Part shown: positions 3,678 to 9,721 of the stretch, one piece after another
Numbering within the stretch: the first letter of the stretch is position 1
Layout of the letters: every line of letters starts with the position of its first letter
NCBI RefSeq assembly: GCF_020782115.1
Contig: NZ_JAJGMW010000008.1
Coordinates: 62,001-126,000 of the forward strand
DNA from: Leeuwenhoekiella parthenopeia
GTDB lineage: Bacteria; Bacteroidota; Bacteroidia; Flavobacteriales; Flavobacteriaceae
DNA: 64,000 bases
Direction of reading: 5' to 3'
Notes under the pieces: model-generated
The model's database searches: none
Told to the model about the DNA's origin: nothing
The model's input: the letters and a program-made list of their open reading frames with translations, nothing else
Position numbers and translations under genes: made by a program

Positions 3678-4685
3678 TTAGCCGCCTATGGCAATCATAC
3701 TGCGGTTGTTGTTGTGCAAGTCGGGATTGGTAAGTTGGTCAAAATCGGTCATTCCGGCGCGTACCGCTTTCTTTTTATTTAGGGCTGCATCGATAAGTGT
3801 TTCCAGGTTTTCGCCTGCGCGAAAGGGTTTCAGCAAATTGGTTTCCTCGTTAGAAAACAGGCAGTTTTTGAGTTTGCCATCTGCGGTGAGCCTGATGCGG
3901 TTGCAGCTGTCACAAAACGGATTGGTAACCGAACTGATGATGCCAAAGCTTCCGCGATAGCCTTCAATCCTGAAGTTTCTGGCCGTAAAATTTTGCTCAT
4001 TGGGAAGTGGTTGCAGGGCTTTGACTCCAAAATGATCGTTTACGCGATTTAAAATTTCGGCCTGACTCACGAGCTTGTTTTTGTTCCAAAGGTTTCCGTC
4101 AAAAGGCATAAACTCGATGAAGCGCACATTGATGTTTCGGTCTTTGGTGAGCGCTACGAAGTCCACGATTTCATCTTCATTAAAATCTTTCATCAACACC
4201 GCGTTCAGTTTTACATCAAAACCTTCATCCAGAAGCTGATTGATGTTGTCAAAAGCCTGCTTATACTCATCACGGCGCGTGATAAACTTAAACTTTTCGG
4301 GATTTAAGCTATCAAGACTCACGTTGATCGCGTTGAGTCCAAAACGTTTAAAATCGTCAATAAACCGGTGGGTAAGGAGCGCGTTTGTGGTTATCGATAA
4401 TTTCACCGGAAGCTTTGCGAGCCTTTCAAGAATAGCAGAGAAATCTTTGCGTACCAAAGGTTCACCGCCCGTCAACCGAATTTTGTCAACCCCGTTAGCG
4501 ACAAAGATTTTTGCAATGGCTTCAATCTCGTCTGCCGTCATCAAATGCGCACGCGGTGTTAGTGCAATCCCATCGTGGGGCATGCAATAGGTGCAGCGCA
4601 GGTTACACTTTTCGGTAAGTGAGATGCGCAGGTAATTGTGCGTGCGGCCGTGGGAATCGGTTAGTATGGGAGTTATTTTAGTCAT
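3678..4685 (-). CDS. moaA: GTP 3',8-cyclase MoaA (radical SAM)
   Basis: Catalyses the first step of molybdenum cofactor synthesis, turning GTP into 3',8-cyclo-GTP. It carries the radical SAM cluster motif CNLRCTYC near the N-terminus, LTGGEPLVRKD for S-adenosylmethionine binding, and the C-terminal cluster motif CDSCNRIRL with a third cysteine in KNCLF. It ends in Gly-Gly, as MoaA needs for activity. I chose the ATG at 4685, which overlaps the moaC-mogA stop as ATGACTAA, a typical translational coupling. Upstream in-frame ATG (4691) and GTG (4703) codons are possible and would add two or six residues. It is the last gene of the Moco operon. Confidence 0.95.
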   Translation of the reverse strand: MTKITPILTDSHGRTHNYLRISLTEKCNLRCTYCMPHDGIALTPRAHLMTADEIEAIAKIFVANGVDKIRLTGGEPLVRKDFSAILERLAKLPVKLSITTNALLTHRFIDDFKRFGLNAINVSLDSLNPEKFKFITRRDEYKQAFDNINQLLDEGFDVKLNAVLMKDFNEDEIVDFVALTKDRNINVRFIEFMPFDGNLWNKNKLVSQAEILNRVNDHFGVKALQPLPNEQNFTARNFRIEGYRGSFGIISSVTNPFCDSCNRIRLTADGKLKNCLFSNEETNLLKPFRAGENLETLIDAALNKKKAVRAGMTDFDQLTNPDLHNNNRSMIAIGG

Positions 4686-5595
4686 TGGCATTGTGCTGGG
4701 CACCTCTTAATATTTTAAAAACATGTAATAAATGCGGAAAAACCGCATCCATAGATTCTTTTGCTCCGTTAGTAGAACCGGGCAGGGCAAGCACCAGGCA
4801 ATTGCCCAGCGTACCGGCAACGCTGCGCGAAAGCATCGCGTAGGGCATACGATCCTGACCGTATTTTCGGATGGCTTCTTCAACGCCGGGAATACGCCGT
4901 TCTAAAATAGGCTCCAACGCTTCGGGCGTAACGTCACGCATACTCAAACCCGTACCACCGGTATAAATAAGCAGGTTTACGGTGTCTGAAAGTTCAAAAG
5001 CCTTGCTGCGTATGGTCTCCAGATCATCGGGGATGATCTCATAACCCTGAATCTGCACGTCGTGTTGTTGCAGCTTTTCAATAATGGCCTTGCCTGCGCG
5101 ATCTTCTTTTTTACCCTCAGAAATCGAATCGGAACACACAATAATATGTGCGCTCAACCGGGCCGGATTCTGGTCTTTAAAGCTGCTTTTTCCGCCTTTT
5201 TTATGAAGCAGTTTTACGGTACTTATTTCAATCTCCTTATCGATAGGTTTTAGCATATCGTACATCGTAAGCGCAATAATCGAAGCGCCGTGCATCGCCT
5301 CAACTTCAACCCCGGTTTTATAAACCGTCTTTACCGTGATCTCAATAAAAACCGAAAGACCTTCGATTTTATAATCAACAGCCGTGTACTCAATGGGAAG
5401 GGGATGGCAATCTGGGATGCTGGTGTGCGTATTTTTTACTGCGAAAAGTCCGGCGGTTTTGGCCATTTCAAATACGTTCCCTTTGGGTACCGTATTCTTC
5501 TGAAGCGCCTCAACCGTTTCGGCTTTGCTAAGCTTTACAATTGCCTGAGCTGTCGCGCTGCGTAAGGTGTTTATTTTATGGGTGATGTCAACCAT
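4678..5595 (-). CDS. Fused MoaC (cPMP synthase) and MogA/MoaB (molybdopterin adenylyltransferase)
   Basis: Bifunctional 305-residue protein. Residues 1 to about 145 are MoaC, which with MoaA makes cyclic pyranopterin monophosphate; seen are VFEMAKTAG, the metal or substrate motif SIPDCHPLP and GVEVEAMHGAS. Residues about 150-305 are the MogA/MoaB fold, which adenylates molybdopterin, with the phosphate-binding stretch IYTGGTGLSMRDVTPEA and the end motif LPGSTNGAKES. The fusion joins an early and a late step of one pathway in one polypeptide. Related bifunctional proteins are known in Bacteroidota, so the fusion is unusual but not new. The gene sits between moaE (204 bases upstream) and moaA (8-base overlap). 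Both active-site motifs look intact. Confidence 0.93.
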   Translation of the reverse strand: MVDITHKINTLRSATAQAIVKLSKAETVEALQKNTVPKGNVFEMAKTAGLFAVKNTHTSIPDCHPLPIEYTAVDYKIEGLSVFIEITVKTVYKTGVEVEAMHGASIIALTMYDMLKPIDKEIEISTVKLLHKKGGKSSFKDQNPARLSAHIIVCSDSISEGKKEDRAGKAIIEKLQQHDVQIQGYEIIPDDLETIRSKAFELSDTVNLLIYTGGTGLSMRDVTPEALEPILERRIPGVEEAIRKYGQDRMPYAMLSRSVAGTLGNCLVLALPGSTNGAKESMDAVFPHLLHVFKILRGAQHNAND

Positions 5596-5799
5596 GTTTT
5601 ATTTTTATTGCTATTATTATTTTTATTGGACACTCCGGAAACTGAGACTTCCTACTTGTAACTGTTAATGGTTAAACGTTAATAGATTAATGAGTTATTT
5701 GAAATCACTTATAACTGACTTTTAATCTTTTACTTTTCACTTCTCACCTGCAACTTGTAATCCGCCAACTGCTTACTGAGACTGCCAACTTAGGCTCAA
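5596..5799. repeat. Gene-free spacer with degenerate short repeats
   Basis: This 204-base gap within the moa operon has no open frame of interest. It is A/T-rich with recurring short words: ACTGAGACT occurs at both ends, with related forms such as TAACTGTTAATGG, TAACTGACTTTTAATC and GCCAACTG between. I read it as decayed simple repeats of the kind common between Bacteroidota genes. No hairpin followed by a T-run was seen that would end transcription. Confidence 0.4.
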
Positions 5800-6228
5800 C
5801 TAAGAATTCACTTTCCACTGATGGCTTTGGTCTTCAAAAATCTCTTTTCCGAAGATGGGTGTGCGTTCTTTAACCTGATTAACGATCCACTCTGTGGCAG
5901 AATACACTTCTTTCCGGCGCTTCGCGGAAACAAAAACGAAAAAGCATACTTCCCCGGTTTTGATCGTGCCCAGGCTGTGGTAAATGTGCATACAGATCAG
6001 GTCAAATTTTTGAAAGGCTTCTTCTCGTATTTCGTGTAATTTTTCGTTAGCTAACTCTTCGTAGCAGGAATACTCAATTGCAGCAACGGATTTTCCTTCA
6101 ATTTCATCTGCCCGTACCTGACCCAAAAAGATATTGTGCGCACCAATGCTGGTTTTGCTTTGATGCTTGGCAATAGAATCTCCTATAAATGCACTGCTGA
6201 TGGGCCCTTCTATAAATACTTTTTTCAT
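5800..6228 (-). CDS. moaE: Molybdopterin synthase large subunit MoaE
   Basis: Catalytic subunit of molybdopterin synthase, which uses the thiocarboxylated MoaD tail to place two sulfurs on cyclic pyranopterin monophosphate. Its 142 residues match the family length. The C-terminal KERTPIFGKEIFED with a following QWK holds the conserved lysines of the active site; HNIFLGQVR near the N-terminus (family form GAxxxFxGxVR) and HSLGTIKTGE are also typical. It lies downstream of the moeB-like gene, separated by a tandem 8-base repeat, in the same direction as the whole Moco block, which also supplies its partner moaD. Confidence 0.95.
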   Translation of the reverse strand: MKKVFIEGPISSAFIGDSIAKHQSKTSIGAHNIFLGQVRADEIEGKSVAAIEYSCYEELANEKLHEIREEAFQKFDLICMHIYHSLGTIKTGEVCFFVFVSAKRRKEVYSATEWIVNQVKERTPIFGKEIFEDQSHQWKVNS

Positions 6229-6243: not shown

Positions 6244-6298
6244 GTTTGATCGTTTGATCGTTTAATCGTTGAACTGTTGATGCGTTTAATCGTTAATC
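6244..6298. repeat. Tandem 8-base repeat between moeB-like gene and moaE
   Basis: Seven consecutive units in one phase: GTTTGATC twice, GTTTAATC, GTTGAACT, GTTGATGC, GTTTAATC and a partial GTTAATC. The last unit runs into the stop codon of the moeB-like gene, which begins at 6293. The array fills most of the 64-base gap between the two genes. Confidence 0.85.
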
Positions 6299-7339
6299 TA
6301 CCTGGGATTTGCGGAGGGCGTTGGCCAATTCCCGCGCTCCTTCCTGTAATGCCTTTACTCCGGTAAAACCCCAATCTCTCATCTGTTCCACCGCTATTTT
6401 CGCCCGTTTTCCACTTTGGCAAAACACATAAAAGGTTTCATCAGGATCCAGTTGCTGTTGTGCGGTTTCGAGTTCGCCTAGCGGAATTTCAATAAGCCTG
6501 GGCATTTGCAATCGCGGTTGTTCATCGGGTTGTCGTACATCAATGAAAATACCCATTTCAAGCAGTTCCGGATTAAAATTCAGGGCTTGAATAGCTTCTT
6601 TTAAATGCTTTTCCTTGTAAAAAGCCTCTGTGATCTGTGGCGTTTCTTTTTTTGTAAACTGAAAGCGTTCCTGAGTTGCATTCAGGCAATTGTAAATCAA
6701 TAATTCACCTGAAAGTACCCTTCCGGTTCCTAAAATAATCTTCATCACTTCCTGCGCCTGAAGCATTCCAATCAGACCGACAGCAGTTCCCAATACTCCG
6801 GCTTCAGCGCAACTGGGCGCTTCAACAGCCTGTGGAAATAAACAGCGATAGGTTGGTCCGTTTTGATAATTAAATACCGAAACCTGACCTTCAAAACGGT
6901 GAATGCTTCCGTAAACCACGGGCTTCTGCGTGAGAACTGCCGCATCGTTGATCAGGTAACGCACGCTTATACGATCTGTAGCATCTACAATAACGTCAAA
7001 ATCAGCAAACAAGGCTAACGCATTTTTTCCGCTTAGAAACTCAGTTGTACCTTCAATTACACAGTCCGGATTTTGCTGTTCTAAACGTTCTTTTGCGATT
7101 TCGGCCTTAAACCTTCCTACATCTTTTGCGGAATACAAAACCTGCCGGTGCAGATTGCTTTCTTCAATACGATCGCCGTCTACAATCCCAAGTGTTCCCA
7201 AACCCGAAGCGGCCAGATAGGGCAGGAGTGCACAACCCAGACCCCCGGCGCCAATAACAAGCACGCGGGATTCAGCCAGTCTTTGCTGCCCGTTTTGCCC
7301 GATTTGGGGTAAAATGATTTGACGTTGATAACGACTCAT
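6293..7339 (-). CDS. moeB: MoaD-activating E1-like enzyme with C-terminal rhodanese domain (MoeB/MoeZ type)
   Basis: Adenylates the C-terminal glycine of MoaD and probably delivers sulfur to it. The ThiF/E1 domain (about residues 1-235) shows RYQRQIILPQIG, the nucleotide loop GAGGLGCALLPYLA, the Arg finger in NLHRQVLY and DATDRISVRYLIND. A rhodanese domain (about 260-348) carries the persulfide-forming cysteine in CQSGKRA. This two-domain layout is that of MoeZ or the eukaryotic MOCS3, so one protein can both activate and sulfurate MoaD. It lies 6 bases after moaD. The paired CxxC zinc motifs of E. coli MoeB are not evident: only single cysteines in YRCLFP and PSCAEAG remain. Confidence 0.93.
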   Translation of the reverse strand: MSRYQRQIILPQIGQNGQQRLAESRVLVIGAGGLGCALLPYLAASGLGTLGIVDGDRIEESNLHRQVLYSAKDVGRFKAEIAKERLEQQNPDCVIEGTTEFLSGKNALALFADFDVIVDATDRISVRYLINDAAVLTQKPVVYGSIHRFEGQVSVFNYQNGPTYRCLFPQAVEAPSCAEAGVLGTAVGLIGMLQAQEVMKIILGTGRVLSGELLIYNCLNATQERFQFTKKETPQITEAFYKEKHLKEAIQALNFNPELLEMGIFIDVRQPDEQPRLQMPRLIEIPLGELETAQQQLDPDETFYVFCQSGKRAKIAVEQMRDWGFTGVKALQEGARELANALRKSQVD

Positions 7340-7345
7340 ACGTAT

Positions 7346-7585
7346 TTATCCACCGGCATAAGGTGGAAGCAGGGCTACCACATCGCCTTCATTTAAATTC
7401 ACATTTTCTTCGGCATCCACCAGCTTTTGATTGATCGCAAGCTGAAACGGGATGTGACTTATGGCATATTGCGCCTGTAAGTGTTCCAGTAATTCCTGAG
7501 TGTTTTGAGCTTTGACGCTGCGGACTTCCTCGTGACTGCCCATCACATCAACCAGCTGGCCAAAGTATTTCAGTGTTACTTCCAT
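7346..7585 (-). CDS. moaD: Molybdopterin synthase small subunit MoaD (ubiquitin-like sulfur carrier)
   Basis: Sulfur carrier of 79 residues with a beta-grasp fold. It ends in YAGG; the terminal Gly-Gly is adenylated and thiocarboxylated and then inserts into MoaE. NEGDVVALLPPYAGG is the family tail signature. I chose the ATG at 7585 (MEVTLKYFGQ), where homology begins; the longer frame to 7633 would run back into mobA. The start then lies one base after the mobA stop and the stop 6 bases before the moeB-like gene, which fits tight coupling of carrier and activating enzyme. Confidence 0.93.
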   Translation of the reverse strand: MEVTLKYFGQLVDVMGSHEEVRSVKAQNTQELLEHLQAQYAISHIPFQLAINQKLVDAEENVNLNEGDVVALLPPYAGG

Positions 7586-7586
7586 A

Positions 7587-8165
7587 TTAAATATTCTTTT
7601 GTATTTCAGCCAAAGCTTCGGGCGTATTAACATTGGTCAGGCTACGCGTATCGGCTATGGCTATTTCTTTATAGGTTTGTGTTTTAATAAAATCAATCAG
7701 TTTTAAATGGTTTTGTTGCAAGGCAAGTTCTAAATCGGGTAAAAGTGCTTTAGCATACACTCCTATTAGCGGATGCCAGTTTTCGTTTGCTGTTGCGAAA
7801 TGAATGTTTGCATCGGGATTTGAAAGCGCGGCGTCTACAAGCCGGGTCAGGGTCTGTGAATTGATCAGCGGAATGTCACAACTCAAAATCAAAACACGTT
7901 CTTCCTGTGTATGGTTCAATGCCGCATGAATGCCTCCCAGCGGACCTTTATCTTTATAAATGTCTGCAACCAACGGCAGTCCAAATTGCTCGTAATTCCG
8001 GTTTTCGCTTACCAAACAAATAGCAGTAGTCGTTTTATTTAACGCATTGACAACGTGCTTGATAAATGGTTCTTCCTGAAGCAAAACTAAAGCCTTGTCG
8101 CGCTTCATTCGGGAGCTTTTTCCTCCACAAAGAATGTATGCCGGTATGGTATAATTTGCGCTCAT
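7587..8165 (-). CDS. mobA: Molybdenum cofactor guanylyltransferase MobA
   Basis: Transfers GMP from GTP to Mo-molybdopterin to give the bis-MGD form used by DMSO reductase family enzymes. The nucleotide motif LCGGKSSRMKRDKAL is near the N-terminus, and KDKGPLGGIHAAL and SCDIPLI, with the metal-binding Asp, follow. Its 192 residues are normal for the family. It supports a bis-MGD client, which fits the YdeP-type oxidoreductase encoded divergently. It sits between the ModE-like gene (6 bases) and moaD (1 base). Confidence 0.93.
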   Translation of the reverse strand: MSANYTIPAYILCGGKSSRMKRDKALVLLQEEPFIKHVVNALNKTTTAICLVSENRNYEQFGLPLVADIYKDKGPLGGIHAALNHTQEERVLILSCDIPLINSQTLTRLVDAALSNPDANIHFATANENWHPLIGVYAKALLPDLELALQQNHLKLIDFIKTQTYKEIAIADTRSLTNVNTPEALAEIQKNI

Positions 8166-8171
8166 AAATGT

Positions 8172-8510
8172 TTACAGACTTTGCTTTAAGGCATTAAATT
8201 GTTCGTTTAAAAATGCCTCACAGGCATTATTCAGCGTTTCAAATTTGATGATCATCTGCCTGCCGTATTCGGTCAAAAACGTGCCGCCACCGTCTTTTCC
8301 GCCGGTATTCGTAATTACCAAAGGGATCTCGGAACAGCTGTTCATCGCATTGATCAGCTTCCAGGCCTTCTTATAAGACATCTGCATGGCTTTGGCTGCA
8401 GCGCTTATCGATTGGGTTTCATCTACTTTTTTAAGCAGCTCGATTCGGCCAAAACCCAAAAAGACTTCGCCTTCCTCTTCAATCCAAATTCTGCTTTTTA
8501 CCTGCTGCAT
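8172..8510 (-). CDS. ModE-type molybdate-responsive DNA-binding protein, short form without molybdate domain
   Basis: A 112-residue winged-helix protein resembling the N-terminal domain of ModE. Seen: GRIELLKKVDETQSIS, AAKAMQMSYKKAWKLI (the recognition helix) and the wing GGKDGGGTFLTEYG. There is no room for the molybdate-binding (MOP/TOBE) domains of E. coli ModE, so if it senses molybdate it must do so in another way. It lies in the Moco operon 3 bases after moeA and probably regulates the operon; a ModE-box-like palindrome at 9698-9721 is a candidate site. Family membership is clear, regulation is inferred. Confidence 0.88.
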   Translation of the reverse strand: MQQVKSRIWIEEEGEVFLGFGRIELLKKVDETQSISAAAKAMQMSYKKAWKLINAMNSCSEIPLVITNTGGKDGGGTFLTEYGRQMIIKFETLNNACEAFLNEQFNALKQSL

Positions 8511-8513
8511 GGT

Positions 8514-9689
8514 TTAAAAATTTAAATCGAGATAGGTGACTGTATCCCCTTGTTTTACTCCCGTTTGATGCGGCTCTATAACCAGGAGCGCGTTGCTCAC
8601 CGCATAGGTATTGAGCATCGAACTCGCCTGCCCGGTAAAGGGCATAATGCGATTCTGGTCAACACCGGCTTTGAGAAACAGTGTTTTATCGTGCGGATTG
8701 CGTAAATCCTGCTGTAAAATCGCCTTACGTTCCTCCAGAAAGGGCTTTTTGCTTCCCATTCGTAATCGCAAATGCGGCAGAACATAAACGTAAAAACAAG
8801 TCAGGCTTGAGGCAGGATTACCCGGCAAACCAAAAACCGACTGGTCTGCCTGAGTACCAAACCACAAGGGTTTTCCGGGTTTTTGATTTACTTTATAGAA
8901 ATGTTCCTGCACGCCGTTTTCCCTGAGCGCTTCCTGAACAAAATCATAATCACCCACCGAAATTCCTCCGGAAATCAGCAGCACATCGGCCTGTTCCAAA
9001 GTTTTTTTTACCGCTTTTACTGTGGCTTCCAGCGTATCGGGAACCTTAATTTTTTCAATTTGGCTAATGCCAATGCGCTTTAAAGCCATTTCCAACATAA
9101 TGCCGTTGCTTTCATAAATATGATTGGGCTTGAGCGGAGCTCCGCGTTCCTGAAGTTCGTTTCCGGTAGTCAATAGCGCTACGCGGGGCTTTTTATAAAC
9201 GGGAACGCTGGTAAATCCCAACCCGGCAAGGAAACCTATTGAGGCTTCGTTTATACGATGTCCTTTAGTTAAAGCCAGGTCACCGACCTTCAATTGTTCG
9301 CCCACAGGCCGCACGTTTGCGTTTTTTGCGGGAATTTGATTTAAAATCAGGTTGTCTCCTTCTCGAGTCGTATGTTCCTGAATGATTACGGTATCTGCTA
9401 ACTCAGGGACCGGAGCACCGGTAAAAATACGTATGGCCTCACCGGGATTAAGCGCGGGAACCTGTACATCTCCCGCCTGAACCTGTCCGGTTATTTTCAA
9501 ATTTTTAGCTTCCGAATGTATGATTGCATAACCATCCATCGCCGATTGGCGAAAGGATGGAAGCGAGATCGGAGCGTTTAAATCTTCCGCTAAATAGTGC
9601 CCAAAAGCCTCTTCTAAATTCACTTCGATTACCTGAAGTGTTAGGGAATGGGCTTCAATAAGTTTTTGGGCTTCAGAAACAGCTATCAT
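8514..9689 (-). CDS. moeA: Molybdopterin molybdenumtransferase MoeA
   Basis: Inserts molybdate into adenylated molybdopterin. The 391-residue protein shows FRQSAMDGYAI, the classic MoeA N-terminal motif, IFTGAPVPELADTVI, LLTTGNEL, the catalytic-site stretch ISGGISVGDYDF, and the hallmark FGLPGNPASS. It is the first gene of the minus-strand Moco operon, so the promoter should lie in 9690-9850, where the divergent oxidoreductase gene and a ModE-like palindrome are also found. Full length, no oddities. Confidence 0.95.
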   Translation of the reverse strand: MIAVSEAQKLIEAHSLTLQVIEVNLEEAFGHYLAEDLNAPISLPSFRQSAMDGYAIIHSEAKNLKITGQVQAGDVQVPALNPGEAIRIFTGAPVPELADTVIIQEHTTREGDNLILNQIPAKNANVRPVGEQLKVGDLALTKGHRINEASIGFLAGLGFTSVPVYKKPRVALLTTGNELQERGAPLKPNHIYESNGIMLEMALKRIGISQIEKIKVPDTLEATVKAVKKTLEQADVLLISGGISVGDYDFVQEALRENGVQEHFYKVNQKPGKPLWFGTQADQSVFGLPGNPASSLTCFYVYVLPHLRLRMGSKKPFLEERKAILQQDLRNPHDKTLFLKAGVDQNRIMPFTGQASSMLNTYAVSNALLVIEPHQTGVKQGDTVTYLDLNF

Positions 9690-9697
9690 ACAAAATG

Positions 9698-9721
9698 CGT
9701 TATGTCTTAGCGAATATAGCG
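9698..9721. promoter_or_regulatory. Candidate ModE-type operator upstream of moeA
   Basis: A 24-base imperfect inverted repeat: CGTTATGT, eight bases, ATATAGCG. Each half matches the half-site CGTTATAT of the E. coli ModE box (from memory) in 7 of 8 positions, and the total length is also 24. It lies 9 bases in front of moeA, the first gene of an operon that encodes a ModE-like protein, and could also affect the divergent oxidoreductase. No binding data are available here. Confidence 0.45.

Follow-up and report, generated by a model that had tools for sequence, protein, structure and literature searches.

The regulator ModE of Escherichia coli is described as repressing modABCD and activating the moa operon (PMC11980592), and the ModE box has been given the consensus ATCGCTATATANNNNNNTATATAACGAT (PMC2700814). 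Scanning the K-12 genome (NC_000913), we located the modA site as CGTTATAT-TGTCGCCT-ACATAACG, starting 43 bp before modA. Full-length ModE joins an N-terminal winged-helix domain to a tandem C-terminal TOBE (Mop) sensor, and the E. coli protein carries an SYK-AW helix that we take to be the recognition helix, as in the short protein described here. Parts of this arrangement occur separately elsewhere. ModG is described as having two TOBE domains (PMC11980592), and Gmet_0511 of Geobacter metallireducens is reported to have lost the DNA-binding half while its sites decay (PMC2700814). A putative ModE from Agrobacterium (PDB 2ijl), which we compared as a structure alone, is HTH-only. Among the matches listed in a search of the open-licence literature, in which ModE collides with the word "mode", no title or abstract dealt with HTH-only ModE or with ModE boxes in Bacteroidetes. 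Studholme and Pau reportedly published the main ModE-box survey in 2003.

A ModE-type palindrome and a short ModE in a Moco cluster

We analyzed a 64-kb stretch of the Leeuwenhoekiella parthenopeia genome, hereafter the window, in which a molybdenum cofactor (Moco) gene cluster is preceded by a palindrome of the ModE type. The features are as follows.

9698-9721, minus strand: predicted ModE-type operator of 24 bp, CGCTATAT-N8-ACATAACG read towards moeA
9711-9718, minus strand: TATATTCG, predicted -7 promoter element in the distal operator half, one mismatch to TAnnTTTG
8514-9689, minus strand: moeA, molybdopterin molybdenumtransferase, cluster gene 1
8172-8510, minus strand: HTH-only ModE of 112 aa, no TOBE, predicted reader of the operator, cluster gene 2
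7587-8165, minus strand: mobA
7346-7633, minus strand: moaD
6293-7339, minus strand: moeB-like gene, ThiF domain plus C-terminal rhodanese domain
5800-6228, minus strand: moaE
4678-5595, minus strand: moaC/moaB fusion (moaCB)
3678-4703, minus strand: moaA
9924-12245, plus strand: FdhF/YdeP-family molybdopterin oxidoreductase, divergent

The genes from moeA through moeB are almost contiguous, with mobA starting 6 bp past the end of modE, and are followed by 64 bp ahead of moaE. The 204-bp gap between moaE and moaCB (5596-5799) holds no listed ORF and no known RNA; a separate promoter for moaCB may lie inside it. A Moco riboswitch (Moco RNA motif) was also considered and gave no Rfam match at the gathering score in the window. 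The divergent oxidoreductase gene starts about 200 bp from the operator, and control of this gene by the operator is not indicated.

The plus-strand letters of 9698-9721 are CGTTATGTCTTAGCGAATATAGCG, and the minus-strand reading is CGCTATAT-TCGCTAAG-ACATAACG. Its proximal end is separated by 8 bp from the moeA ATG at 9687-9689. The preliminary description had likened the palindrome to the E. coli ModE box, and the comparison bears this out: both sites are 24 bp long with CGNTATAT-type arms around an 8-bp spacer, and 15 of the 16 arm bases are identical to those at E. coli modA. The E. coli site stands on a transporter operon, whereas the Leeuwenhoekiella site stands on a Moco-synthesis operon. 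When the whole genome (4.42 Mb) was scanned with up to two mismatches, 9698-9721 was the sole match, with no second operator elsewhere, and the box was absent from the 6 kb upstream of the mod operon (locus L105). With up to three mismatches it was still the sole match in the window, a level at which shuffled windows contained 0.39 matches on average and at least one match in 30 of 100 cases. The genome as a whole then contained 28 matches. The other 27 all have three mismatches, fewer than the 45 matches of the reversed-pattern control, so the exact site alone stands above chance.

The ModE-like ORF matches TIGR00637 with 86.9 bits (7.5e-25), under the curated cut-off of 98.5, and its domain shares 48% identity with E. 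coli ModE over 77 aa. Its predicted fold (mean pLDDT 91.2) matches both E. coli ModE (1b9m) and HTH-only 2ijl, the latter of similar length and with a TM-score of 0.80 by query length, identifying an N-terminal ModE winged-helix domain. It is 96% identical to its L. nanhaiensis counterpart, and the closest named genomes are those of Leeuwenhoekiella. The tandem TOBE sensor of the E. coli protein is missing: no TOBE domain was matched in the 112 aa, in agreement with the earlier statement that this short protein lacks a molybdate-binding domain. Because of this, and because the genome contains a single ModE match, the conditional claim that molybdate sensing must differ from the E. coli case if the site is used also stands. 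As in Gmet_0511, the two halves of ModE are separated, but in Leeuwenhoekiella it is the sensor half that is missing while the sites are kept.

Linkage of the box to short ModE proteins

The preliminary description had proposed looking for the palindrome before moeA in relatives, counting lack of conservation against it. We searched 119 genomes, our own included, and found ModE in 36 (37 matches); the matches of the best 30 genomes were followed to their loci. The moeA start is visible in 28 of these 30 loci, ten of them from the window's genus. All 28 evaluable loci, which include the window and span 18 genera, have the box before moeA at two mismatches or fewer, and 27 of them at one or none. 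At L028 an exact box lies further off (L103), and at L037 the moeA region is cut by a contig end. By comparison, among 26 moeA loci from 24 ModE-negative genomes (80 of the 83 such genomes were searched), none carried the box at up to two mismatches and two did so at three. This control is imperfect: the scanned stretch was shorter (330 nt, versus 400 nt at the ModE-positive loci), and for 16 of the 26 genes identity to the moeA of the window is no more than 30-38%. Single-base shuffling of the regions gave a box in 1 of 5600 cases at up to one mismatch and in 12 of 5600 at up to two.

Across whole genomes, the exact box occurs in 26 of the 36 ModE-positive and in 0 of the 83 ModE-negative genomes (Fisher 2e-18). 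The relatives are not independent, and we therefore also counted by genus, which gave 17/25 versus 0/63 (2e-12). Box and ModE gene thus co-occur in the relatives, and they are also lost together: neither of the two congeners lacking a ModE match, G007 and G012 (the latter 81% complete), carries the box ahead of moeA. When one mismatch is allowed genome-wide, matches appear in 49 of the 119 genomes (16 ModE-negative), and the reversed control at the same setting matches at least 37 of the 83 ModE-negative genomes.

Individual genomes depart from the common arrangement in several ways. G031, one of the six ModE-positive genomes beyond the best 30, has an exact box; G013 has a box with one mismatch about 170 bp before moeA; in G102 the exact box lies ahead of modE and not of moeA; and in G006 a one-mismatch box before moeA is on a different contig from ModE. 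No box with up to two mismatches was found in G094, where ModE lies beside moeA, nor was a box found at the second ModE of G071 (L101). The ModE of G043 lies outside a Moco operon, and a two-mismatch box precedes a class-V aminotransferase gene in this genome. At L095 (2796-4359) and L096 (2772-4356), an HTH-only modE is situated between genes that look molybdoenzyme-like by eye and a class-V aminotransferase gene (the latter tested in L095 only), with a two-mismatch box between modE and the aminotransferase gene. Further box-like sites in relatives lie inside open frames (L090, L093, and L094) or are intergenic (L091 and L092); the analysis of L106-L109 was a scan for the box.

In a wider sample of 395 genomes of the phylum, ModE was matched in 103. 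Open frames of 113-150 aa were found in 13 genomes of the window's family (our own included), in 10 others of its class, and in the further phylum members G176 and G283. Nearly all the remaining ModE genomes belong to one other family, whose frames mostly reach about 270-350 aa. Full-length ModEs of the phylum (families f32 and f30, which we take to be green sulfur bacteria) have the same DNA-binding domain in frames mostly of this length, and the three tested (G123, G169, and G230) each showed two in-frame TOBE stretches.

This sample provided 24 short-ModE loci from 23 genomes. The six that lie in Moco clusters all have the box at one mismatch or none, and the 18 outside Moco clusters fall into six with a canonical box (up to two mismatches) after modE, six with a variant site, and six with neither. 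Six ModE loci, all from a single genus, have the recognition helix AYRQAW instead of SYKKAW. Each of these six has CAGTATTC-N8-ACATACTG or a sequence close to it beside modE, in four cases before a TonB-dependent receptor gene, and none has the canonical box at up to one mismatch. In the other 57 of the 63 loci readable by script (some were missed, for example L023, L141, and L145), the variant pattern gave two one-mismatch matches, both within moeA (L031 and L103). Over 30 genomes, the variant pattern had five zero-mismatch matches, all in genomes with an AYRQAW-type ModE: four adjoin this ModE (G285, G427, G316, and G335), and the one in G138 immediately follows the receptor. Allowing one mismatch, 9 of the 30 genomes matched. 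G316 encodes two ModEs, one of each helix kind, and each is paired with its own box type. This co-variation of helix and operator is the best sequence evidence that short ModEs would read these sites.

Ten distant loci (L141, L143, L145, L148, L153, L158, L160, L163, L178, and L181) have an HTH-only modE followed by a gene for a TonB-dependent receptor of 851-891 aa. The box before the receptor gene is of the canonical type (up to two mismatches) in six and of the variant type in four. These receptors are candidates for recognizing molybdate or a molybdenum carrier at the outer membrane.

Overlap with a predicted promoter element and probable repression

The sigma-A -7 box of Flavobacterium psychrophilum is reported as TAnnTTTG at -12 to -5 (PMC9723704). 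Of 39 sites oriented relative to their genes, 33 have TATATT[TC]G across the distal half of the palindrome and the spacer, and one has it in the proximal half; with one site per genus, the values are 21/26 and 1/26. Transcription is predicted to start near 9706, corresponding to box position 16, which is a purine in 36 of the 39 sites, a figure to be read with the equal purine-richness of positions 15, 17, and 19. TTG at a fixed -33 spacing was not found in the 39 oriented sites. With this start, the operator would extend from about -15 to +9, where a repressor site is expected, and because the distal half carries a -7-like element, self-repression of the Moco operon is likely. In Azotobacter, the anfA start site is reported to lie within a putative ModE site (PMC9542535). 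Activation from a different promoter would also be compatible with a site that overlaps the start. The position of the Leeuwenhoekiella site predicts repression of Moco synthesis, unlike the activation of moa in E. coli.

We consider it probable that the HTH-only ModE uses the palindrome as its operator. A ModE dimer bound to it would lie over both the -7 element and the transcription start and, by occluding the start, would repress moeA-modE-mobA-moaD-moeB-moaE and perhaps moaCB-moaA too, resulting in negative autoregulation of Moco synthesis. Here ModE binding, repression, and the start site are what we infer from sequence. Since this ModE has no molybdate-binding domain, it would be either a free-running autorepressor that sets the level of the pathway by its own dose, or a repressor adjusted by an outside factor. 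The overlap with a -7-like element was absent from the preliminary description, as were a separate di-Mop protein and the 26 of 36 ModE-positive genomes without a TOBE match.

Sources of a molybdenum signal and competing explanations

The sole TOBE match in the L. parthenopeia genome is a ModG-like di-Mop protein of 134 aa with, as in ModG, two TOBE stretches. It is encoded inside the modABC operon, between modA and modB.

L009, 1489-1893: free-standing gene for the ModG-like di-Mop, overlapping both modA and modB

It aligns with the sensor half of E. coli ModE (27% over 63 aa), and the regulator might thus be a split one, in which di-Mop binds molybdate and acts in trans on the HTH-only ModE, rebuilding the E. 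coli sensor. G285 has modA, di-Mop, modB, an ATPase-like ORF, and HTH-only modE consecutively on the same strand, and modE of G504 is directly adjoined by a Mop ORF of 72 aa. Such a scheme would call for a Mop protein in every HTH-only ModE genome, but TOBE was matched in just 10 of the 36 ModE-positive genomes (our own included) and also in 6 of the 83 ModE-negative ones, and a Mop protein was found in 4 of the 23 further HTH-only ModE genomes. Since 26 of the 36 have no TOBE match, this distribution rules out di-Mop as the general sensor. Within the genus, where 11 of 13 searched genomes have a TOBE match, neither ModB nor TOBE is matched in G002, which has ModE and the box, and di-Mop is present in G007 and G012, where no ModE is matched; di-Mop tracks ModABC and not ModE. 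We therefore regard a split ModE as decidedly unlikely. A second reading is that the HTH-only ModE senses molybdenum or Moco status itself, or via a partner such as MoeA, the molybdenum-inserting enzyme, using Cys97, which lies within the last helix (81-111) of the predicted model. A cysteine at this position is present in 29 of the 30 ModEs of L010-L039 and in further Moco-cluster ModEs (L099, L100, L102, L154-L156, L159, L161, L162, L176, and L177); 23 ModEs encoded outside Moco clusters lack it. Of the 29 L010-L039 loci in which moeA can be seen, 28 have it immediately ahead of modE. Against this, conservation within a single clade may reflect structure, the cysteine is missing from L033 and L098, both of which have boxes, and L101, outside a Moco cluster, has the cysteine without a box. 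We regard this reading as unlikely. The last-helix cysteine marks the Moco-linked ModE subfamily, with these three exceptions, and is a candidate sensing or contact site.

The palindrome might also be no more than an AT-rich promoter region whose dyad symmetry arose by chance, with ModE a passenger gene, and three-mismatch sites are indeed common by chance. The contrast of 28/28 versus 0/26 moeA loci, the joint absence of box and ModE from two congeners, and the helix-operator co-variation make such a coincidence highly improbable. A TauE/SafE-family permease gene is found in the modE locus of 23 genomes, none of which has ModB above the curated cut-off, and in the 17 ModE-positive genomes with ModB above the cut-off no such permease was present in the modE loci seen (ModB was searched in 61 genomes).

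L020-L031, L033, L035-L039, L098, L102, L155, L156, L161: loci with a TauE/SafE permease

The permease is a candidate replacement for the ModABC molybdate transporter, and uptake may be exchangeable while the box and ModE stay. It is conceivable, if rather improbable, that throughout much of the class Bacteroidia a sensorless ModE governs Moco synthesis, reading cofactor or molybdenum status through its C-terminal cysteine or contact with MoeA.

An HTH-only ModE acting on this operator would mean that a textbook metal regulator has been rewired across a whole lineage, with the operator almost unchanged in sequence, the sensor half missing, and control passed from uptake to the making of the cofactor. 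The natural helix-operator pairs offer ready specificity tests, and the missing sensor half raises the question of how flavobacteria sense molybdenum and match Moco synthesis to its supply.
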